From IMG/VR virus record IMGVR_UViG_3300048014_000057, positions 62,001 through 126,000 of that record: a stretch of 64,000 nt of DNA. One strand, given 5' to 3'. The DNA is from a virus. Within the stretch, counting starts at the first letter, position 1; every line of letters begins with the position of its first letter. Of this stretch, positions 1-45,593 are shown piece after piece. The notes beneath the pieces were generated by a model. It made no database searches. It was given only the letters and a program-made list of their open reading frames with translations, and was not told where the DNA came from. A program made the translations under genes and the position numbers.

Positions 1-277
1 CTTGATTAACATTTCTAATTTTAAATTCAAGAATTGTACTATCAATTCTAAATGACAAAATAAAAAAATTTAAATCAATATAATATTGATTATTATTAGT
101 TTGGTCACAAAAAATAAAAATAGTACCATTATAGTCTAATTTACTAACAAATTTTTTAAAATGGTCTCTTACTTTTTTTCTTGTTTCTTCGTTATTATTT
201 TCAAGAAAAACATCATCTGGAAAATACGATTTTACCTCACTTTTGATAAGATTAATTACATTATTTTTATTTAACAA
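1..277 (-). CDS. Small protein resembling the C-terminal part of tail sheath, partial
   Basis: The reading frame opens at a TTG (277) that overlaps the end of gene 46 and runs off the left edge of the window, so only about 92 residues are visible. Residues around 28-75 (EETRKKVRDHFKKF, then FIFCDQTNNN) follow the pattern of the T4 gp18 C-terminus (FTR..F...., FRVVCDETNNTP). A second small gene at 54218 carries the same CDETNNN motif. The sheath link is a motif match by eye. The start codon is uncertain; AAGGA lies ten bases upstream of the TTG. It lies immediately downstream of gene 46, outside any tail cluster visible here. Confidence 0.45.
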   Translation of the reverse strand, partial: MLNKNNVINLIKSEVKSYFPDDVFLENNNEETRKKVRDHFKKFVSKLDYNGTIFIFCDQTNNNQYYIDLNFFILSFRIDSTILEFKIRNVNQ

Positions 278-3026
278 TTTTACTAAATCCTTTCTCTTTT
301 TTAAATTCGATTATATTTTCTATTCTATCCTTATTTTTTTCATTATGAGAAATAATAAACACATTTTCATCCTTTGTCAATCTTTTTAAAATATTAAGGT
401 AAGAATCTATTCCATCTGCATCCATACTACCATCAAGAGTTTCATCAAAAATAAGTAAATTTGTATCGAGTGAATTTCTTCTTTTTGCCACTTCTCTGAA
501 AGTAAAGAGAAGTGCCAAATTAATTCTCATTTTTTCTCCTTGACTAAAAGACTGAAAAATATGTTCATCACGATATCTAGATTTTATAACTTCATTAAAA
601 TTTTCATCTACTGTAAATTGACAAATAAAATCCATTTCAAGAAGAAATTTATTTATTAATTCATTAATCACTTCAATATATTGTTTAATAATAGAAGCCT
701 TGACTCCATCATCTCGAAGAAGTTTAAGTAATATATTCATATTTTCTTTTTGAATTACTAAATTATCATAATTTTTAATATAATTTTCAAGAGAATTTTG
801 TAATTGTAAAATTTCTTCTGTTTTATCTTCCACATTTTCATTTTTAAAAGAATTAATTTTTATTTTTAATTCATTAGCAAGAGAAGTAATATTTTTTAAT
901 TCATATAAAATTAAATCAATTTTAGAATTAACTTCTTTCATGGATTTAATAGAATCATTAAATTTATCAATTTCTAATTCTAATTTATCATATGTTCTTT
1001 GGTATATTTTTACCTGATCTAAATTATGAGTATGTTGTATCCTTTTTTCTTGTATAATAATATCCTTAAAAGTTTCATCAATATTTTGATTACATACATT
1101 ACAAACACACGTATTTTCATAATAATACATTTCTTTTTCTAGTTTTTTATTTTCAAGTTTTAAATTATTAATATCACTTCCAAGTTTATAATAAAGTGAT
1201 TCTTTAGTTTTTAATTCATCTTCTATTTTAGAAGTATCAAATTTTTCTGGTATATTCTTCTTTTTTAACAAATATGATTTTCTGTATTCCTCTAATTTTT
1301 CTTCCATTTCTAAAATTTGTTTTTGATTATCTTCTTTTCTTTTTTTATTATATTCTTCCAATAATTTGATTCTATTTTTTAAAGTATTTTGTTCGGTTCT
1401 TAATTCATAGATATTTTTTTCATTATCTTGAATTCTTTTTTTAAGTATTAAATTCATAGAAGAAAATATTTCAAGATCAAGTAAATTTTCTACTATTTTT
1501 CTTCTATCTGGTAAAGGAAGTTCTAAAAAAGGAACATACGAAGCCGAACCCAAAACACAAACTTGACAAAATGCCTTATGATTAATATGAAGAATATTTT
1601 CTTCTAAATATTTTTGATAATCATCTTGGTTTGTATTATTCAATAATACATTATTTTTATATATTTCAAATTTATTAGGTTTTATACCTCTAATAATCTT
1701 ATAAAAATCTTGTCCTATGGTAAATTCTATTTCCACCAGACAATTTTTCTTTGTCATTGAATTAACCAAAAGAGATAAAGTTACTTTTCTAAATGGTTTT
1801 TTAAACAAACAAAAACAAAGAGCATCAAGACAAGTCGAATTATGAGTTACAACATAATTATCAGTTACATATAACTGAGAAGGATGATCAATAGAAATAC
1901 ATTTAACAATTTCTTTTTCAATTTTTTCAATTTTTTCAATTCTTAAACGTAAAGAATCTTTATATTGATAATTTTTACATCTTTCTTTTTTTCTAGATAA
2001 TGAAAATAACTCAGATGGATTTTTATATCTAATATTTAATTGATATGATAATCTTCCTTTCTTTTTTATTCCTTTATTTGTAAAGGAAGGATTTTTTTCT
2101 GAAATTTTACAAATACCACCAATAGAAAATATTAATTCTTGTATATCTTTGGCTAATTCATAACTTGTTGTTGAATAAGAAATAGAACCGTTTCTATCAG
2201 CAGTTCCATCTGTATCCATTAAACCACGTAATAATTCTATTTTTTGATTAAAAGAAATATTTTTATATAATTCTGGAATATTTTTTTCCCAGGATCGTTT
2301 TCCATATAAATTTAATTTTTTTAATTCTTCTTTAAATATGTGTTTTTCATATTTAATACCATAATTAATTCTATAAGAACATCTTGTTTGAACTTTTGAT
2401 AAATGTAATTTTACAATCCTAGGACAAGTAAAATCAAGAATATTTCTTACTTTATTTAATAATTCTTCATCTGTATTTGTTATTGTTACATTACTACTAG
2501 TAAATGATCCATCACCAATTAAAACACCTAATAAATAAGGATTAATTGGTAAATCTACATCTTTTTTTATAAAATTTTCTGCTTCAAAAAGTTGAATAAA
2601 ATGATTATCAGTAAAATTACCTAATGAATTTTCTTTTTCTTTTAAAATTTCTAAAAGAGATAAAATTTTCCATTGCCATTTTGATTCAAAATATCCCCAT
2701 ACTCTAAAAAGATGGTTTTCCCCACATTTAACTTTTCTTCCATCTTTAAATGTAATTTCATATACATTTTCTTCTCCGATAAATGGAATATCAATTACTT
2801 TTGATATATCTCCATTAGCAGATACAATTTCATCTCCAATTTTTATATTACCAATAGTATTCCATCCTAAAGGTGTTAGGATTTTTGAATATAATGGTTG
2901 TGCTTTACCAGCACCATTTATACCAACAATAAGTGAAATAGAATTTTCGTTTAATTTTATTTCTGTCCATTGATTACCAGATGATAAAAAATTCTGGTAA
3001 CGAATAGTATTAAATATTATTTTCAT
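267..3026 (-). CDS. 46: Recombination endonuclease subunit gp46 (SbcC/Rad50-like) with in-frame intein
   Basis: ATPase subunit of the gp46/gp47 exonuclease, which resects DNA ends for recombination-dependent replication. The N-extein (residues 1-41) ends inside the Walker A loop GINGAGK. An intein fills residues 42-396. The C-extein resumes with STCLDALCFCLFKKPF, which closes the P-loop and matches T4 gp46. A long coiled coil follows, with a CNVC zinc-hook motif near its middle. The C-terminal ABC signature (FSQGEKMR) and Walker B (LLIFDETLDG) are present. After splicing the protein would be about 564 residues, the normal size for the family. Gene 47 lies upstream on the same strand, separated by two small genes. 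No activity is possible without splicing because the ATP-binding loop is interrupted. Confidence 0.95.
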   Translation of the reverse strand: MKIIFNTIRYQNFLSSGNQWTEIKLNENSISLIVGINGAGKAQPLYSKILTPLGWNTIGNIKIGDEIVSANGDISKVIDIPFIGEENVYEITFKDGRKVKCGENHLFRVWGYFESKWQWKILSLLEILKEKENSLGNFTDNHFIQLFEAENFIKKDVDLPINPYLLGVLIGDGSFTSSNVTITNTDEELLNKVRNILDFTCPRIVKLHLSKVQTRCSYRINYGIKYEKHIFKEELKKLNLYGKRSWEKNIPELYKNISFNQKIELLRGLMDTDGTADRNGSISYSTTSYELAKDIQELIFSIGGICKISEKNPSFTNKGIKKKGRLSYQLNIRYKNPSELFSLSRKKERCKNYQYKDSLRLRIEKIEKIEKEIVKCISIDHPSQLYVTDNYVVTHNSTCLDALCFCLFKKPFRKVTLSLLVNSMTKKNCLVEIEFTIGQDFYKIIRGIKPNKFEIYKNNVLLNNTNQDDYQKYLEENILHINHKAFCQVCVLGSASYVPFLELPLPDRRKIVENLLDLEIFSSMNLILKKRIQDNEKNIYELRTEQNTLKNRIKLLEEYNKKRKEDNQKQILEMEEKLEEYRKSYLLKKKNIPEKFDTSKIEDELKTKESLYYKLGSDINNLKLENKKLEKEMYYYENTCVCNVCNQNIDETFKDIIIQEKRIQHTHNLDQVKIYQRTYDKLELEIDKFNDSIKSMKEVNSKIDLILYELKNITSLANELKIKINSFKNENVEDKTEEILQLQNSLENYIKNYDNLVIQKENMNILLKLLRDDGVKASIIKQYIEVINELINKFLLEMDFICQFTVDENFNEVIKSRYRDEHIFQSFSQGEKMRINLALLFTFREVAKRRNSLDTNLLIFDETLDGSMDADGIDSYLNILKRLTKDENVFIISHNEKNKDRIENIIEFKKEKGFSKIVK
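1839..2903 (-). mobile_element. LAGLIDADG intein in the gp46 P-loop
   Basis: 355 residues between GAGK and STCLD of gp46. It starts with Ala (AQPLYSKILTPLGW), has the block A pattern GDEIVSANG, a block B GENHLF, two LAGLIDADG motifs (LLGVLIGDG, LLRGLMDTDG) and ends VVTHN followed by Ser. An Ala at position 1 cannot act as the usual nucleophile. A Cys in block F (VKCISID), a Thr just before the final HN and Trp residues after block B fit the class 3 (WCT) splicing mechanism. Both endonuclease motifs keep their acidic residue, so homing activity is plausible. Confidence 0.9.
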
Positions 3027-3262: not shown

Positions 3263-3436
3263 TTATCCTCTATGTTCATGAAAATATTTTTCCACAAAAA
3301 AATGAATATCAGTAATTAAAATATTAAATCTATCAAAATATTTTTCTATTCTATATAGAATAGTACCTAAATATCCTATAATTATTATTAATAATATTGT
3401 TATTAATATAAGAAAATAAAGTACATAATCATTCAT
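3263..3436 (-). CDS. Small membrane protein, 57 aa
   Basis: The start is taken at 3436, where the ATG overlaps the TGA of gene 47 (ATGAATGA arrangement, typical of translational coupling); a longer frame upstream would only run inside gene 47. Residues 4-27 are one strongly hydrophobic segment (LYFLILITILLIIIIGYLG), followed by a charged tail with several aromatic residues. The function is unknown. It is one of several tiny membrane proteins inserted between recombination genes here. Confidence 0.65.
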   Translation of the reverse strand: MNDYVLYFLILITILLIIIIGYLGTILYRIEKYFDRFNILITDIHFFVEKYFHEHRG

Positions 3437-4463
3437 TTTGCATGGCCTCTTTATAAATTTCTTCGGTAAGTAATTGTAACTCAGCTTTATATTGAGTGTC
3501 AATAGTAGAAATTTGTTTTTTAAAAATTTCTAAAGTAGATTCAATATTTTGAACAACTTCAGGATTTACAATATCAATTTTTTCTTGTATATCATTAACT
3601 AAAAGATCAATCACTCCAAGATTATGAATTGAATCAATAAAATTTTTAAATTTAGTTTCTGATTTTTTAGAAATAACGTTTACTTTAACATAAGAATTTT
3701 TAGTATTTAAAATGTCTATTTCTTTATCTTCTTCATAATCGATTTTAACAAACATCTTATATGGATTTCTATGGTAATCCAATATTCCAGTATCAGTATC
3801 CAAAATACAAAAACCAGAATCATTGGTATAATCCCCCCAATTGAATTGAAAGCAAGAACCAATGTAATTAATATTGTTGTTATGATTACGAGTGTGATAA
3901 TGGCCGGATAAAACTTTATCAAACCTTTCAAAAATTTTTGGATCATCTCCATGAGTTGATATAATTCCTTTCTGTGTTTCAAAGCCTTTTAATTCCAAAT
4001 GTGCCATACAATATCGTGCCTGTGATTTTTCTATCACCTTTAATGATTCTTCTCTGTTTTCTTGAGAAATCCAAGGAAGGAAAAGAATATTTCCTATTTC
4101 TTGAGGATTATTATATAAGTTAATATTATATTTACCTTCTATTAATTCTTTTAAGGAATTAATATCATTAGTTTGACGATGAAAAACATCATGATTACCA
4201 CAAATAATATCTGCTTTTAATCCATTTTTAATTCGATATGAAAGTGGTTCAAAAAAATCTTCTCTTAATTTTTTTGCAGTTTGTATATTAATTTGTCTTC
4301 GATTATCAACAAGATCACCAAGATGTATAAAATGTTTAATATTATTTTTATCAATATATGGAAATACTACTTCTGAAAAAAAATTATGCATATAGGGATA
4401 AAATGCCTGTGAATCATTTCTACAACCCCAATGTGTATCTGCAATAATTAATATTTTACTCAA
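3429..4463 (-). CDS. 47: Recombination endonuclease subunit gp47 (SbcD/Mre11-like)
   Basis: Metallophosphoesterase nuclease that pairs with gp46. Metal-binding motifs are in order: DTHWG (9-13), GDLVDNR, GNHD, and GHYH near residue 190. At 344 residues it is close to T4 gp47. The start is a TTG at 4463, directly abutting the stop of the upstream membrane peptide (TAA then TTG), which suggests coupled translation. The end overlaps the next small gene by 8 bases. The identification rests on family motifs and gene order with 46. Confidence 0.95.
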   Translation of the reverse strand: MSKILIIADTHWGCRNDSQAFYPYMHNFFSEVVFPYIDKNNIKHFIHLGDLVDNRRQINIQTAKKLREDFFEPLSYRIKNGLKADIICGNHDVFHRQTNDINSLKELIEGKYNINLYNNPQEIGNILFLPWISQENREESLKVIEKSQARYCMAHLELKGFETQKGIISTHGDDPKIFERFDKVLSGHYHTRNHNNNINYIGSCFQFNWGDYTNDSGFCILDTDTGILDYHRNPYKMFVKIDYEEDKEIDILNTKNSYVKVNVISKKSETKFKNFIDSIHNLGVIDLLVNDIQEKIDIVNPEVVQNIESTLEIFKKQISTIDTQYKAELQLLTEEIYKEAMQNE

Positions 4464-4967: not shown

Positions 4968-5538
4968 TTTGTTCCTCTTTTTTTATTTTTTTAACTTTGT
5001 TTTTAGAGTAATCAAGATTTTTATGGGAAGAATATCCCTTTGAATTATTTTTATTTTTAATTTCAAACTTTTCAATAACTTTATTATGTTCTTCATTATT
5101 AAATGAATCTCCAAATTCATTTAAATCATCTAATGAAAATAATCTTTCAAAATTCTTGTGTTTTGTATAAGATTGTTTTTCTTCTTTGGATATTGTTTGT
5201 ATGAAAATATTCCAGGCTATTTGAGTAAAGTAGGCAAATGGATTAGGATTTTCTTTATTATAGTCTACATCATAACAATGTACCTTTTCCACCATTTTTT
5301 CAATAGCCGAGAGAACCATTTCTTCTTTAAAAGAATAATTAATGAAATTGAATTTATTGGATAATTTATTGGCAATTTGAAAAATACATTCTCCTATATA
5401 TCTAGGAATTTGTATATCTTTATTTTCATTTAATTTTTCATTATAATCTACCAAAGCCTTATAGAAATCAGGACCGTTAATATAATTCTTTTTTGATTTT
5501 GGTTTTCTTACAATACTTCCTGTTTTTTCCTCTGTCAA
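4957..5538 (-). CDS. 55: Late-transcription sigma factor gp55
   Basis: Phage sigma factor that, with the sliding clamp gp45 and co-activator gp33, directs host RNA polymerase to late promoters. The central region holds the gp55 hallmark: FKEEMVLSAIEKM, then NPFAYFTQIAWNIFIQTISKEEKQ, equivalent to sigma region 2 of T4 gp55. The C-terminal 50 residues are very basic. At 193 residues it is close to the T4 protein (185). It heads a minus-strand operon running into 47 and 46. Candidate late promoters are listed separately. Confidence 0.93.
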   Translation of the reverse strand: MTEEKTGSIVRKPKSKKNYINGPDFYKALVDYNEKLNENKDIQIPRYIGECIFQIANKLSNKFNFINYSFKEEMVLSAIEKMVEKVHCYDVDYNKENPNPFAYFTQIAWNIFIQTISKEEKQSYTKHKNFERLFSLDDLNEFGDSFNNEEHNKVIEKFEIKNKNNSKGYSSHKNLDYSKNKVKKIKKEEQNAS

Positions 5539-5645
5539 TTTTTTCCTTTCTTTTTATGAAAATTTTTTTTCTTATTATAATTAAACTTTAAATTTTGTCA
5601 AATGAAAAAATAAAAAAATAATTTCTTAAAGTTCTAAAATATCGC

Positions 5646-5674
5646 TTGACACACTTTTTTCGGGCTGGTATAAT
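5646..5674 (+). promoter_or_regulatory. Consensus sigma70 promoter
   Basis: TTGACA at 5646-5651 and TATAAT at 5669-5674, both perfect consensus, separated by exactly 17 bases. It points rightwards into a stretch with no plus-strand gene, facing the 3' end of uvsW. It is the best host-type promoter in the window, yet has no protein-coding target. Confidence 0.8.
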
Positions 5675-5680
5675 AGTAGT

Positions 5681-5820
5681 ATATACTTCAACATATTATA
5701 GTTTGTATTCAACATGTTGAAGTTTATCTTTTCTAAGTCTTTAAATTCTAAATATATAAAGAAGTTATGTTGAAGTAACTTTAAAGTACCTTAGTATATA
5801 GGTTCCCAACGACTAAATGT
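5681..5820 (+). ncRNA. Candidate structured small RNA
   Basis: The region between gene 55 and uvsW has no open reading frame on the plus strand, but lies directly downstream of a perfect promoter. ACTTCAACA (5685-5693) can pair with TGTTGAAGT at 5715-5723 or with a second copy at 5768-5776. The second copy also lies in the loop of the AAGTTA/TAACTT hairpin (5762-5781). A self-complementary TTCAACATGTTGAA lies at 5708-5721. No clear terminator is seen, so the RNA could continue antisense into uvsW. Confidence 0.4.
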
Positions 5821-5824
5821 AAAA

Positions 5825-7255
5825 CTAAATATTAACACTAATTTTTTGATAATTAAATTTTTCATCAAGATACATTTTTTCTCTTTCTTTCATATGGAGA
5901 AATGTGCTAGATTGTTTTTTGGATATTTTATCAGCAATGTCATAAACAGTTAAAAGTTTTTTATCAGGACTTTTTCTCAATCCTCTACCTATGGATTGTA
6001 AAGTCTTAATTCTGGATTTGGTAGGATGAACTAAAATTAAATTATGAAGATTATGAATATTGATTCCAGTGTTAAAAACTTTAGAACATAGTGTTATTGA
6101 ATTTTTTAGAATTTCAATTTCATTTATTATATTTTTTCTTTCCTTAGAATCATTATCACCATCTACATAAAAAACAGGAACTTTACTTTCTCTCTTGATT
6201 TTTTCATAAAGAACTTTTCCATGATCCTTATTATTAAACATAATAAATGTGTTTTCCTTTAATGAAAGTGCTAAGGTTTTTATAAATTGATTTCTTTCAT
6301 CGGAATTTAATAGATAAGAAATTTCATCTTCATAATTAACTCCATATGTATTTTCATAATATGGAGAATTTTTATGATTAAGAATTATAATTTTAAAATC
6401 TACAGGAGATGAAAATCCTCTATCGATTAATTCCTTGGTTGTTATGTATTTATGAATAGGACCAAAAAGGCTTCTAATAGTCATTAGAGATAATTGATCC
6501 TTTATATCTTGTAGAGTTCCTGTCATTCCAATTTTTATATTAGAATTTATTGTTTTTTCCATAAGTTTTTTCAGTGATTTTGATTGGAAAGTATGAACTT
6601 CATCGGCAAGAATGATTTCTTTATCTTCAAACCATGATTTCTTTTCATTGATTAACGATTGATAGGTGGAAATTATTAACTGTTTATCAGTGACTCGACT
6701 TTCACCTTCCATAATTAAATGGACATCCCCTAGGAACCCGTAGGACTTAAAATCTTCATACATCTGTGTCACAAGTGCTATCGTAGGAACTATTAAAACA
6801 GTACGTTTATTAAAATATCTAAAAAAAAGATATAAAATTAAAGATTTACCACTTGACGTACTACTAAGACAAATTATTTTTTTATTCTTGACACCTTCCA
6901 TAAAATATTTTAATTGGTAATCACGAATTTGATATTTTTCTGGAATATTAAGTGTTTTTATAAATTCTAATGCTTCTTTTTCGGTAAAATTATTTTTAGA
7001 AAAATCTCCTTCTAATTTATATTCATAATTTTGTTTTTTTAAAAATGTTTCTAATTCAGGTAATATTCCTAATCCTAGAATGCATGTATTTTTGTTGTAA
7101 AGGGAAACATAACCATCCCAAAATCTATTTTTAAATCTAGGATCAAATTTATAATTAACTGGTCTATATTTAAATTCTTCATAAATTTCTTGATGAATAG
7201 AAACATCGGAACTTATATGAAGATATACTTCATTTAATTTTTTTATTGTTATCAT
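5825..7255 (-). CDS. uvsW: Recombination/fork-regression helicase UvsW
   Basis: Superfamily 2 DNA/RNA helicase acting on branched intermediates and R-loops. Walker A is SSTSSGKS, the Walker B box DEVH, motif III GMTGTL and motif VI QSIGRGLR. The N-terminal NPRFKNRFWDG-like region matches T4 UvsW (FNPRFRYGNWDG). The start is placed at ATG 7255, which overlaps the TGA of uvsY (ATGA); an in-frame ATG at 7270 would add five residues. Of 476 residues, somewhat shorter than T4 UvsW. Confidence 0.92.
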   Translation of the reverse strand: MITIKKLNEVYLHISSDVSIHQEIYEEFKYRPVNYKFDPRFKNRFWDGYVSLYNKNTCILGLGILPELETFLKKQNYEYKLEGDFSKNNFTEKEALEFIKTLNIPEKYQIRDYQLKYFMEGVKNKKIICLSSTSSGKSLILYLFFRYFNKRTVLIVPTIALVTQMYEDFKSYGFLGDVHLIMEGESRVTDKQLIISTYQSLINEKKSWFEDKEIILADEVHTFQSKSLKKLMEKTINSNIKIGMTGTLQDIKDQLSLMTIRSLFGPIHKYITTKELIDRGFSSPVDFKIIILNHKNSPYYENTYGVNYEDEISYLLNSDERNQFIKTLALSLKENTFIMFNNKDHGKVLYEKIKRESKVPVFYVDGDNDSKERKNIINEIEILKNSITLCSKVFNTGINIHNLHNLILVHPTKSRIKTLQSIGRGLRKSPDKKLLTVYDIADKISKKQSSTFLHMKEREKMYLDEKFNYQKISVNI

Positions 7256-9923: not shown

Positions 9924-10016
9924 GGGAAGGCTGCTAAGATGGCGGTTTAGCAGCCGTCTATAAAACGGTTCCATTTGTGGTAAACATTGTAGGTTCGAAT
10001 CCTACCTTTCCCACCA
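9924..10016 (+). tRNA. Class II tRNA-Tyr-like, anticodon ATA
   Basis: Acceptor GGGAAGG/CTTTCCC, discriminator A, encoded CCA, D-stem GCTA/TAGC, T-arm GTAGG-TTCGAAT-CCTAC. The anticodon arm GCCGT-CTATAAA-ACGGT reads ATA. A 19-base variable region with a CCA/TGG stem makes it class II, which fits bacterial tRNA-Tyr, whose normal anticodon is GTA. Adenosine at position 34 is very unusual. Confidence 0.75.
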
Positions 10017-33981: not shown

Positions 33982-35727
33982 TTGTTTAAAAATAGTTTAT
34001 ATTCAGAATTTATTTATAAATCAAGATATGCGCGTTATTTAGAAAAAGAAGGTAGAAGAGAAGAATGGTACGAAACTGTTAAAAGATATTTTGATTTTAT
34101 TCAAGAAGGTTTAAAAGAAAAACATAATTTTGATATTTCTTCTTATAGAAAAGAATTAGAAAAAGCTGTATTATGCCATGAAATAATGCCTTCTATGCGA
34201 GGATTGATGTCTGCTGGTCCTGCTGCCAAAAGTAATGAAATTGCTCTTTATAATTGTGTCTTCTTACCAATTGATAATGTAAAATCATTTGATGAAGAAA
34301 TGGCTATTCTAATGAGTGGAACAGGTGTAGGATTTTCAGTTGAATCTCACAATATTAAAAATCTTCCAGAAATTCCAGAAGATTTTTTTGAATCTGAAAC
34401 AATAATAATTTTTAATGATTCTCGTTTAGGATGGGCAAAAGGTTATAGAGAATTTATTTCATTACTTCTTATTGGTCAAATCCCTAAATGGGATGTTTCT
34501 AATTTAAGACCTGCTGGTGCAAGATTAAAAACTATGGGCGGAACAAGCTCAGGACCGGAACCTCTAGTAGATTTATTAAATTTTACTATTAATATTTTCA
34601 AAAAGGCTGCTGGTCGTAAATTAAATTCATTAGAAATACATGATATTGCATGTAAAATTGGTGATATTGTTGTAAGTGGTGGAGTTAGGCGTTCTGCTTT
34701 AATTTCATTATCAGATTTAAATGATATTAAAATGAGAGATGCTAAATCTGGTAATTGGTGGCAAACAAATCCTTATAGAAGATTATCTAATAATTCTGCT
34801 GTTTATGAAGAAAAACCAGATATAAGCACATTTATGACAGAATGGTTAAGTTTATATAATTCACATTCTGGTGAAAGAGGAATTATTTCAAGAGAAGCTA
34901 TTAGAAATGTAATTGAAAATTCTAATTTTTATAGAACAAATCGTATTAATATTCCAGGATACGAAATTAGAACAAGAGATAAAAATTATGATTGGGGAGT
35001 AAACCCGTGTTGTGAAATAATATTAAGACCATATGAATTTTGTAATTTGACTTCTGTTCAAATTTATGAAGATGATACGCCTGAAACTCTTAAAAGAAAG
35101 ATTAGACTTGCTACTATTCTTGGTACATTTCAATCTTGTTTTACTAATTTTAGATATTTAAATAAAAAATATAAAAAAAATTGTGATGATGAAAGATTAT
35201 TAGGAGTTTCATTAAATGGTATATTTGATAACAAATATACCAATAAAAAATATTTTCTTGAAGAATATGAAGAATTTAGTCAATCTAAATTTTATAATTT
35301 TCTTGAAAGTCTTAAATCAGAAGCAATTGAAACTAATATAAAATTAGCCAAAGATATTGGTATTAATTCATCTGTTGCCATTACTTGTGTGAAGCCTGAA
35401 GGTTGTGTATCATTAGATACAAAGATTAAAACTAAAAATGGAATATTAAATATGGCTGAAATATTTTCTGAATTAACATCAGAAAATATATTTGAAATTG
35501 GTAATGGTGTCTGGATAGAACCAGAAAATATTATAACTGTATATGATGAAAATAATAACGAAAAAAATATTACTAAATTATTTGTAAATGGATTAAGTCC
35601 TGTTTATGAAATTGAATTCGAAGATGGTGTTATTGTAAAACTTACAAAAAATCATCAATTAAAAACAAAAAATGGATATAAAAAAGCAAAAGATTTATCA
35701 GAAAATGATGAAATTATTGCTTGGTAA
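33982..35727 (+). CDS. nrdJ: Class II ribonucleotide reductase, N-terminal part with N-half of split intein
   Basis: Adenosylcobalamin-dependent RNR (RTPR-like). It starts at TTG with GGGAG upstream. Residues 1-474 hold MSAGPAAKSN, NCVFLPIDN, RLGWAKGYREF, RPAGARLKTMGGTSSGPEPL and NPCCEI, then the loop TCVKPEG. At Cys475 an intein N-half of 107 residues follows (CVSLDTKIKTKNG, block B LTKNHQLKT) and ends DEIIAW-stop. The rest of the enzyme is in the next ORF. Activity requires protein trans-splicing or readthrough. Confidence 0.9.
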   Translation: MFKNSLYSEFIYKSRYARYLEKEGRREEWYETVKRYFDFIQEGLKEKHNFDISSYRKELEKAVLCHEIMPSMRGLMSAGPAAKSNEIALYNCVFLPIDNVKSFDEEMAILMSGTGVGFSVESHNIKNLPEIPEDFFESETIIIFNDSRLGWAKGYREFISLLLIGQIPKWDVSNLRPAGARLKTMGGTSSGPEPLVDLLNFTINIFKKAAGRKLNSLEIHDIACKIGDIVVSGGVRRSALISLSDLNDIKMRDAKSGNWWQTNPYRRLSNNSAVYEEKPDISTFMTEWLSLYNSHSGERGIISREAIRNVIENSNFYRTNRINIPGYEIRTRDKNYDWGVNPCCEIILRPYEFCNLTSVQIYEDDTPETLKRKIRLATILGTFQSCFTNFRYLNKKYKKNCDDERLLGVSLNGIFDNKYTNKKYFLEEYEEFSQSKFYNFLESLKSEAIETNIKLAKDIGINSSVAITCVKPEGCVSLDTKIKTKNGILNMAEIFSELTSENIFEIGNGVWIEPENIITVYDENNNEKNITKLFVNGLSPVYEIEFEDGVIVKLTKNHQLKTKNGYKKAKDLSENDEIIAW

Positions 35728-35856
35728 ATATTAAACACAGGAAAAAAAGAAATGAAAATAAAAAAAATTAAAATATTAGAACCAGAACTTACAGTAGATA
35801 TAGAAGTAGAAGATACACACACTTATCAATTAGAAAATGGAGTTGTTAGTCATAAT
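35404..35856 (+). mobile_element. Split mini-intein in RNR
   Basis: The N-half spans 35404-35724 and the C-half 35752-35856 (MKIKKIKILEPEL, block F VDIEVEDTHTYQLENG, end VVSHN, then Thr). It has no endonuclease domain. The two halves are in the same reading frame and separated only by one TAA and eight sense codons that contain GGAAAAAAAGAA, a usable ribosome site for the second ATG. Confidence 0.85.
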
Positions 35857-36417
35857 ACAACTGCTGCTTACAACGGTACTTCTTCGGGAATTCATCCTTC
35901 TTATTCTCCTTATTATATTAGATATGTAAGAAACGATAAAAAAGACCCTCTTACTAATTTTATGATTAATAATGGATTTCCTTGGGAAGTAGATGTATAT
36001 GATCCTAATAATGTTGTATGTTTTAAATTTCCTATTAAATCTGCTTCTACTTCTGTTTCAAGAAAAGAATTAAGTGCGATTGAACATCTTGAAATTTGGT
36101 TAGAATATCAAAAATATTATTGTGAACATAAACCTTCTGTTACTATTTCTGTTAAAGAAGATGAATGGATGGAAGTTGGTGCATGGGTTTATAAAAATTT
36201 TGAATGGATGAGTGGAGTATCATTTTTACCAGCAGAAGAAGGTTCTACAGTTTATAAACAAGCACCTTTTACAGAATGTAATGAAGATCAATATAATGAA
36301 TTATTAAATAAAATGCCAGAAAATATTGATTGGAAAAAATTAGTAGAATTTGAATTAGAAAACTCGACTACAAATTCTAAAGAATTGGCGTGCGTTTCTG
36401 GTGGATGTGAAATATAA
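35752..36417 (+). CDS. nrdJ: Class II ribonucleotide reductase, C-terminal part with C-half of split intein
   Basis: First 35 residues: intein C-half ending VVSHN. Residue 36 onwards is the RNR C-extein: TTAAYNGTSSGIHPSYSPYY, then SVTISVKEDEW, FLPAEEGSTVYKQAPFTEC and a terminal CVSGGCEI that holds the thioredoxin/glutaredoxin-reduced cysteine pair. Joined to the first half this gives about 660 residues, the usual size. Confidence 0.9.
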   Translation: MKIKKIKILEPELTVDIEVEDTHTYQLENGVVSHNTTAAYNGTSSGIHPSYSPYYIRYVRNDKKDPLTNFMINNGFPWEVDVYDPNNVVCFKFPIKSASTSVSRKELSAIEHLEIWLEYQKYYCEHKPSVTISVKEDEWMEVGAWVYKNFEWMSGVSFLPAEEGSTVYKQAPFTECNEDQYNELLNKMPENIDWKKLVEFELENSTTNSKELACVSGGCEI

Positions 36418-37753: not shown

Positions 37754-37920
37754 ATAATAATGCATCTAAAAATTTTATAAGAAATGAAAATTATGATTGG
37801 ATTGGAGTCATAAATTATGATACTATTCAAGGTCTAAAGGCAAAGGGAATAATAACAAAAAAACCTTCTGCATTTCCAGGAATTAAAAATGAGGGATGTC
37901 ATATTCCCCTTAGAAGATAA
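37750..37920 (+). CDS. Possible small protein without standard start codon
   Basis: An open frame of about 56 codons that reads like a real protein (ENYDWIGVINYDTIQGLKAKGI, SAFPGIKNEGCHIPL) but contains no ATG, GTG or TTG. The first candidate start is ATA at 37750. Its Shine-Dalgarno is poor. I recall similar C-termini in T4-like hypothetical proteins. It ends 13 bases before gene 41. Confidence 0.4.
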   Translation: MNNNASKNFIRNENYDWIGVINYDTIQGLKAKGIITKKPSAFPGIKNEGCHIPLRR

Positions 37921-43565: not shown

Positions 43566-45593
43566 ATGGAAATTAAATTAACTGCCGAAGACCTAGCCAA
43601 AAAGAAATTATTTATAGCTACACCTATGTACGGGGGTTTGTGTGCTGGTATGTACACTAAATCTATGTGTGATTTATCGGCTGTTTGTACTAGATATAAC
43701 ATAGAACTACAATATTTTGCTTTGTTTAATGAAAGTTTGATCACACGCGCTCGCAACTATTGTGTAGATGAATTTCTTAGATCAAAAATGGATTATCTTT
43801 TATTTCTTGATGCCGATATTGGGTTTGATCCTGGTGATATTATTGCTATGATGGGTTTGATGACACTAGAATCTCCTTATGATGTCCTATGTGCGCCTTA
43901 TCCAAAAAAATCGTACGATAAAGATACACCAATTCTTACAGAAGATGGTATTAAAAAAGTAGAGTGGATTGTTAAAAACAAATATTCTGGAAAAGTTATG
44001 TCTTACTCTTCTGAAAGAGGATTTGAATGGCAGCCTGTAATTAATTGGTTTGAATCTTTTGATCCTAATAAAAAATGGGTTAAATTATATTATCAAGGTG
44101 GTTCTAGTAATGGTAAATCTTTAACACTTACTCATGATCATGATTGTATGTTTATTAAAGATATTATGAATCCTTTAATAGAAAAATTACCAGCAGAAGT
44201 AGGTAAAAATAAATGGGCAGTTAGTAGACCAGTAAATAGAATTAATCCTTTATATACTAAAGATCAATTGTCATTTTTAATTGGTACGCTTTTAGGAGAT
44301 GCAACACTTTCTAAAAAAGAACAAAGATTATCAATTGAACATGGATCAAAACAAAAAGAATATTTAGAATTAAAGCAAAAAATATTTGGTGGTGAAATTA
44401 CAGGACCTTATACTACTAATAAAAATGGAACAACATGGCATTTAACATCACCTGTAAATGCACAAACTAGATATATAAGGAATATTTTATATGAAAATGG
44501 TAAAAAAACAGTAAAAAATATTTTGAAATATGTAGACGAAAAATCTTTAGCATTTTGGATATTAGATGATGGTTGTCTTCATAATAATAATGGGAAATAT
44601 TCTCCATATTACAGAATTTCTACAGAAGGATTTTCAGATGAAGATCAATATTTACTTGTAGATTTTTTAAAAGAAAAATGGGATATTGAAGCATCTATTG
44701 TAAAAAATGGTAAATATAATTGTTTATATATTAATACAATTGATAGTAAAAAAGTTTTTGATCTTATTTCTCCCTATATACCAGATTGTATGAAATATAA
44801 AATTCCAGAAAAATATCATTATGTAGAAAAATATATTTTTAATGGAGAATTTTTAAATTATGGAGCTTCTTTAGTAAAAGAAGTTAAATGGTTAAATGAT
44901 GAAAAAAGAAGAAATCAATATGATATTACTGTAGATGTAAATCATAATTTCGTTACAAAAAATATTACAATTTTTCAATGCATCAGTTGGGAAAAGATTG
45001 TTCAGGCGGTAAACAAAGGAATGGCAGATGAAAATCCTAATGTTCTGGATAAGTATGTTGGAGATTTCGTTTTTAATCCAAAATCAGGACAATCCCAAAT
45101 TCCCATTAATAAGCCTTGTGAAATTTTAGAAGGTGGAACAGGATTTATGATGATTCGTCGCGCTACTTTTGAAAAATTTCAAGAAGCATTTCCTCATTAT
45201 ATGTATCGTCCTGATCATGTAAGAACTGCACATTTTGATGGTTCTCGGCAGATTTGTCAATTTTTTCAGGCTGAAATTGATGCTCCTGATGCTGTATTAT
45301 TAAAAGAAAGAATTAAAAAAATTTTTGATAATGGTGGATCAAAAGAAGATATACAAAAAGAAGTTAATGATTTTGAAAAGAAATTATCTACAGCTTCTAA
45401 TCGTTATCTAAGTGAGGATTATTTTTTTTCGCAAAAGATACAAGAATTAGGTATGAAGATTTGGTTATGCCCTTGGATGAAGACAACTCACATGGGAAAC
45501 ATGATATATGGGGGAAGTTTAGCAGATTTAGCAAGTATAGGTGCCTCGCCAACCGCTGAAATTTCATTATTGAAAAAAGAAAAAGCTAAATAA
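43566..45593 (+). CDS. Phage glycosyltransferase with internal intein
   Basis: N-extein residues 1-115 (FIATPMYGGLCAGMY, FLDADIGFDPGD, CAPYPKK) and C-extein residues 472-675 (CISWEKIVQA, GGTGFMMIRR, ISEDYFF-like LSEDYFFSQK, WLCPWMKTTHMG) form one T4-like conserved glycosyltransferase of about 319 residues with the DxD motif DAD. It might glycosylate DNA or surface polymers. An intein interrupts it after PYPKK. Confidence 0.82.
   Translation: MEIKLTAEDLAKKKLFIATPMYGGLCAGMYTKSMCDLSAVCTRYNIELQYFALFNESLITRARNYCVDEFLRSKMDYLLFLDADIGFDPGDIIAMMGLMTLESPYDVLCAPYPKKSYDKDTPILTEDGIKKVEWIVKNKYSGKVMSYSSERGFEWQPVINWFESFDPNKKWVKLYYQGGSSNGKSLTLTHDHDCMFIKDIMNPLIEKLPAEVGKNKWAVSRPVNRINPLYTKDQLSFLIGTLLGDATLSKKEQRLSIEHGSKQKEYLELKQKIFGGEITGPYTTNKNGTTWHLTSPVNAQTRYIRNILYENGKKTVKNILKYVDEKSLAFWILDDGCLHNNNGKYSPYYRISTEGFSDEDQYLLVDFLKEKWDIEASIVKNGKYNCLYINTIDSKKVFDLISPYIPDCMKYKIPEKYHYVEKYIFNGEFLNYGASLVKEVKWLNDEKRRNQYDITVDVNHNFVTKNITIFQCISWEKIVQAVNKGMADENPNVLDKYVGDFVFNPKSGQSQIPINKPCEILEGGTGFMMIRRATFEKFQEAFPHYMYRPDHVRTAHFDGSRQICQFFQAEIDAPDAVLLKERIKKIFDNGGSKEDIQKEVNDFEKKLSTASNRYLSEDYFFSQKIQELGMKIWLCPWMKTTHMGNMIYGGSLADLASIGASPTAEISLLKKEKAK
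43911..44978 (+). mobile_element. LAGLIDADG intein with atypical C-terminus
   Basis: 356 residues from Ser116 (SYDKDTPILTEDG) to Gln471. Block B LTHDHDC, endonuclease motifs FLIGTLLGDATL and LAFWILDDGCL, block F YDITVDVNHNFVT. The end reads NITIFQ followed by Cys, so the usual penultimate His and final Asn are Phe and Gln. Splicing with C-terminal Gln is known in a few inteins. Confidence 0.85.

Follow-up and report, generated by a model that had tools for sequence, protein, structure and literature searches.

The window, by which we mean the whole 64,000-nucleotide stretch of phage DNA analysed here, carries a class II, RTPR-type ribonucleotide reductase gene (nrdJ) interrupted by a class 1 intein at KPEG^TTAAY. 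Two consecutive ORFs fill positions 33982-36417: the first encodes 474 aa of reductase followed by 107 aa of intein, the second 35 aa of intein followed by 186 aa of reductase, and the extein junction reads KPEG^C...HN^TTAAY. The features of the locus are the following:

33982..35403, + strand: N-extein, NrdJ residues 1-474, TTG start, ending in ...VKPEG (TIGR02505 E 2e-63, phrog_367 E 1e-118)
35404..35724, + strand: IntN, 107 aa, with Cys1 and block B TKNH, ending in ...SENDEIIAW (TIGR01445 E 2.4e-6)
35725..35727, + strand: TAA stop closing the N-half protein, read from the sequence and matched by the stop position in members of its clade
35728..35751, + strand: 24-nt spacer after the stop, with a Shine-Dalgarno AGGA at 35739-35742, read from the sequence
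35752..35856, + strand: IntC, 35 aa, MKIKKIK...THTYQLENGVVSHN (MKIKK...VVSHN), ATG at 35752 (TIGR01443 E 1.9e-4)
35857..36417, + strand: C-extein, last 186 NrdJ residues, starting TTAAY with Thr as +1 nucleophile, ending CVSGGCEI and then TAA (TIGR02505 E 8.4e-20, phrog_367 E 3.4e-44)

The models for the N-terminal (TIGR01445) and C-terminal (TIGR01443) intein regions both scored above their cut-offs in the window. An earlier note, made from the sequence alone, had described an N-half that stops with TAA after DEIIAW and a C-half that restarts eight codons later behind its own ribosome site, with all intervening codons in one frame. This description is accurate: the AGGA lies 9 nt ahead of the IntC ATG, and the TAA is followed by eight in-frame sense codons, ATATTAAACACAGGAAAAAAAGAA (ILNTGKKE). 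The shared frame is nevertheless uninformative, since eight stop-free codons are expected in AT-rich window DNA with P ~0.44 and only 5 of the 13 short-spacer relatives described below share a frame between their halves; it is a matter of chance. Counted from the stop, the spacer measures 27 nt (TAA plus 24 nt), and this gap between IntN and IntC contains no endonuclease gene. The window C-extein is the sole copy in the 144,859-base phage record, in which no second nrdJ C-half was found. Recoding or suppression of TAA was considered and rejected: TAA is the commonest stop of the window (27/43 long ORFs), and a tRNA search of the 144,859-base record found no suppressor tRNA.

With the intein removed, the joined exteins match 1L1L, the monomeric RTPR of Lactobacillus (E 7.8e-39). 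Both halves show the homology and the joined exteins read on without a break, so the host protein is classed as a monomeric class II ribonucleotide reductase (RTPR, NrdJ); TIGR02505 covers model positions 180-521 and 518-723 on the two sides, with scores under the curated equivalog cut-off. The intein position maps to VKPSG^TVA of 1L1L, which places the break within the conserved KPxG barrel segment, a segment that we take to have a role in substrate binding. The C-terminal cysteine pair is conserved and frameshifts are absent, and a complete NrdJ is expected in this phage only if splicing works.

The window intein carries Cys1, the block-B TKNH, a terminal HN and Thr+1, the set that defines a class 1 intein. 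Among 48 relatives from IMG/VR, Cys1 and HN are present in all, 44 have TxxH and 4 SxxH as block B, and the +1 position is taken by Thr in 38 and by Ser in 10. AlphaFold predicted a HINT fold for the 151-residue read-through chain (pLDDT 94.2, pTM 0.87). The top Foldseek matches of this predicted fold are inteins (E 1e-8), the nearest solved structures including the Mtu RecA, Ssp and Npu DnaE, Ssp DnaB and NrdJ-1 inteins. Compared with the related loci L002 and L007, IntN is 67 and 65% identical and IntC 77 and 86% identical, with dN/dS of 0.04-0.40, indicating purifying selection on both halves. Charge segregation between the halves, a possible sign of adaptation to splitting, is weak. From the catalytic residues, the predicted fold and the purifying selection, we infer that the window halves splice in trans.

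Peptide-pattern scans of IMG/VR, with duplicates removed, returned at least 48 distinct inteins at the KPxG site or, in other reductase lineages, at the equivalent position; the loci are mostly metagenomic contigs, and the counts are lower bounds and biased. An endonuclease ORF lies in the gap of 30 split members, 13 are split without one, and 5 are contiguous; the split position, at the canonical endonuclease site, is identical in 43/48. A pattern scan found no IntN relatives in bacterial and archaeal genomes. In the tree, which is unrooted and has many weak branches, the window falls within a five-member clade (support 100/94) with L002 (of which L003 is a near-copy), L007, L147 and L100, all of them split and all without an endonuclease gene. 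All five clade inteins stop after the same residue, in the motif DEIxx(W/Y), the codon being TAA in L002, L003, L007 and L147 and TAG in L100, and the C-half start is likewise conserved in L002, L003, L007, L100 and L147. Spacers counted from the stop measure 27 nt in the window, 90 in L002, 20 in L007, 145 in L147 and 55 in L100, and three of the five (L007, L100, L147) are out of frame between the halves. A conserved stop combined with varied spacers and frames effectively excludes a fresh nonsense mutation, a conserved readthrough and an assembly error. The last was removed by independent contigs with the identical split (L002/L003, L007, L147 and L100). The split in the window's clade is thus, as far as sequence comparison can tell, an old, inherited arrangement. 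The naturally split class II reductase intein proposed earlier is well supported by the intein end models, the exteins and the conserved split, and so is its kinship to fractured genes, from which it differs by the missing endonuclease gene (a 27-nt gap, against an endonuclease ORF in 30 relatives). The suggestion of a very recent split is not sustained, because the split position is shared with four other clade inteins, three of them in other frames; nor does any of the five clade inteins have an uninterrupted version with a sense TGG, and the TAA is not a mutated TGG.

The gap endonucleases sampled in the relatives are of HNH, SegE-like GIY-YIG and DUF559/Vsr-like types. We compared the translated short spacers with endonucleases of the relatives, using 100 shuffled spacers per locus as control; the E-values relate to a small set of 30 endonucleases. 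Significant relics were detected in 6/13 short spacers (L002, L147, L122, L146, L149 and L160), for which 0/100 shuffles scored as well. Two of the window's four clade-mates carry clear relics: the L002 spacer retains a GIY-YIG piece (NCHPNELWVSYFTSSKSIHKLI, E 1.6e-11) and that of L147 an endonuclease C-terminal module (KNKGFIWYSDGKNNYKYTK...KKGR, E 4e-19); the other four relics are comparable. The inteins of L160 and L169 are close; L169 has the full endonuclease gene and L160 only its end. A single clade for the 13 endonuclease-less members was rejected (AU p 2e-5). The relics, together with the L160/L169 pair, indicate that members without an endonuclease gene lost it by deletion, apparently on several occasions. 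The C-half ribosome site of L002, AAGGAAG, coincides with the point where the endonucleases end in KKGR(L), and a deletion ending there would have left IntC translation intact. In the window spacer the relic signal is not significant (7/100 shuffles were as good), 27 nt being too short for proof; this spacer is probably the last remnant of a deleted endonuclease gene, and for the exact window lineage we infer the loss from the sister loci. Two gap-type endonucleases and the HNH family gave no match in the 144,859-base record, where the sole GIY-YIG match is sub-threshold and 80 kb away.

On sequence and structure prediction we consider it highly probable that this is a naturally split class 1 intein that trans-splices a phage NrdJ and derives from a fractured gene through deletion of the endonuclease gene. 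The rival readings are improbable to differing degrees. The foremost is a two-chain reductase that works without splicing, the intein halves being passive tails: Aeh1 nrdA, split by insertion of mobE, is fully functional as two chains (PMC2988022). The Aeh1 NrdA type has no intein at its break, whereas complete intein halves lie at the window break, their splicing residues complete and invariant and both halves under purifying selection; the break moreover falls in the conserved KPxG segment, and we regard this reading as very unlikely. Slightly less probable again is that a contiguous cis mini-intein recently acquired a nonsense mutation and that its C-half start is newly recruited. Halves in one frame and only eight codons apart would suit it, and contiguous mini-inteins with short linkers are known in the family (L024), but the split position is common to four other clade inteins, three of them out of frame and with unrelated spacer lengths, two clade members hold endonuclease relics, and contiguous members are absent from the clade.

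Decay has been proposed for the intein-bearing reductase genes of Campylobacter phages (PMC3653736), and the window nrdJ could by analogy be a pseudogene whose split intein no longer splices. This we hold to be lower still in probability, given that the whole coding sequence, exteins and intein halves alike, is intact and under constraint (dN/dS <0.4), with the cysteine pair kept and the frame undisturbed. The least credible alternative is readthrough of the TAA to yield a single contiguous 151-residue intein that splices in cis: the frame is open apart from the TAA and the read-through chain is predicted to fold well, but the out-of-frame clade members L007, L100 and L147 could not be read in this way, TAA is the window's usual stop in a record that yielded no suppressor tRNA, and IntC is equipped with an ATG and a ribosome site of its own.

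For a trans-splicing split intein, one transcript (co-transcription is presumed) would give two proteins, NrdJ(1-474)-IntN, terminated at the TAA, and IntC-NrdJ(475-660), translated from its own ATG behind AGGA. The halves would associate into the HINT fold and splice in trans by an N-S acyl shift at Cys1, transfer to Thr+1 and cyclisation of the last IntC Asn. The product would be an intact, presumably active NrdJ with the joint KPEG-TTAAY, and the spliced tryptic peptide spanning this joint would be DIGINSSVAITCVKPEGTTAAYNGTSSGIHPSYSPYYIR. The ancestor would have been a fractured gene whose halves were separated by a free-standing homing endonuclease gene; deletion of the latter would have left a stop codon and a ribosome site with both halves still functional. 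That the split preceded the endonuclease loss is likely, judged from a tree that is unrooted and weak in many of its branches.

The element moves, as seen from a presence/absence polymorphism. The 7.1 and 4.8 kb of flanking sequence compared between L003 and L004 are 99.97% and 99.75% identical, respectively, and the two contigs differ by the precise presence or absence of the intein, the empty site of L004 reading KPEG^TSSAF. Loss from L004 may be the alternative to gain in L003. The third-position GC of L003 is 14-22% in the intein halves against 45-54% in the exteins, which points to arrival of this intein from an AT-rich phage. L002 and L007 have 88.8% of IntN residues in common and only 71.4%/67.2% of those of the N-/C-exteins. 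In L007, a free-standing HNH endonuclease gene (3348-3905, phrog_374) lies immediately downstream of nrdJ. Window positions 37776-37920 (+) resemble only the C-terminal end of a protein of ~305 aa that is intact downstream of nrdJ in L004 and L007, and are likely a gene remnant.

The five contiguous inteins (L024, L115, L128, L129 and L139) are scattered among the split ones, and a single clade for them was rejected (AU p 3e-5). L024, L129 and L139 retain a Met at the C-half start position; the chance of Met in 3/5 is ~1.5e-4, given an assumed Met rate of 2.5%. This retained Met suggests that the contiguous members are re-fused split inteins. They may have arisen otherwise, by repeated splitting of contiguous inteins, the tree being unrooted. 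On a bolder reading, the family would be no dead end: bare split inteins would still pass between phages, by mobilisation in trans or by recombination, some would re-fuse, and the window would be one intermediate on the way from fractured gene through bare split intein to re-fused intein. We put this forward tentatively, as a possibility that falls somewhat short of even chances.

Other contiguous inteins with HNH domains sit at two further sites of nrdJ, namely the NPC site in L002, L003 and L004 and the GGR^SSGP site in L008-L010, which makes nrdJ of the related phages an intein hotspot. L007 also has a LAGLIDADG-like intein in a DnaB helicase at about 5500-6500. The phage of the window has a second intein, of LAGLIDADG type, in the P-loop of an SbcC-like ATPase (267-3026, -; GAGK^AQPL...VTHN^ST). 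A 675-aa ORF at 43566-45593 (+), whose interior includes a stretch of LAGLIDADG homing endonuclease (phrog_11023), is probably another, and a third LAGLIDADG match of the phage record lies outside the window, inside a 1012-aa open frame (G000 C1:11351-11596, +). The window further encodes a tRNA-Tyr with the unusual anticodon ATA (9924-10016, +; ARAGORN). The 462-kb uncultured phage LR756500.1 (L183 2-4107) has a fractured reductase gene of this kind; the ORF that separates its halves is endonuclease-like, encodes 377 aa and contains repeats, and it is unannotated.

Within this family one intein can be followed at a single site through about 48 natural states: accompanied by an endonuclease gene (of three kinds), by its relic or by neither, contiguous, or missing from the site. 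The order in which splitting, endonuclease loss and possible re-fusion took place thereby becomes testable, and the family is a source of many split inteins as candidates for protein ligation.

Fractured-gene split inteins of phages were reportedly described by Dassa et al. in 2009. The window resembles this type in that a phage reductase gene is broken at the intein's canonical endonuclease site and in the sizes of IntN (~100 aa) and IntC (35-48 aa). It differs in lacking the free-standing endonuclease gene that separates the halves at fractured-gene loci. NrdJ-1 (structure 8UBS) is likewise a class 1 split intein named after NrdJ, with a HINT fold (Foldseek E 7e-8); its sequence match to the window intein is only marginal (phmmer E 0.008, 19 bits), and its insertion site is, we believe, the NPC site and not KPxG. 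In cultured phages, nrdA of Klebsiella phage phiKp_21 and uvsW of Salmonella phage S16 also have IntN and IntC on separate ORFs, annotated merely as hypothetical or partial genes. The phiKp_21 intein occupies the equivalent reductase site (...SHN^TSS). Unlike the window, both still have an ORF between the halves; the phiKp_21 intein lies in a class I reductase, that of S16 in a helicase. No close relative was found in isolate phages; the whole intein finds its best match, at 35% over 150 aa, in the NrdA intein of Campylobacter phages (F341, NCTC12673), which also ends in SHN^TS but is contiguous, lies in a class I NrdA and is flanked by Hef-type endonuclease genes. AceL NrdHF (PMC7891396), published as a fractured reductase gene whose halves flank a GIY-YIG gene, is class 3 and lies in a class Ib beta subunit, whereas the window intein is class 1 and lies in a class II NrdJ. 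Thermus phage phiYS40 has a class II reductase in two consecutive ORFs, nrdJ-a and nrdJ-b, 12 nt apart (PMC3653736), a likeness by ORF layout alone; its phiLo homologue is a single ORF. As the intervening endonuclease gene is the hallmark of the fractured-gene arrangement and the window has none, we file the window intein as an endonuclease-less derivative and not as a fractured gene. The locus is a further case of a known split-intein type, and more interest attaches to the family series in which it stands.
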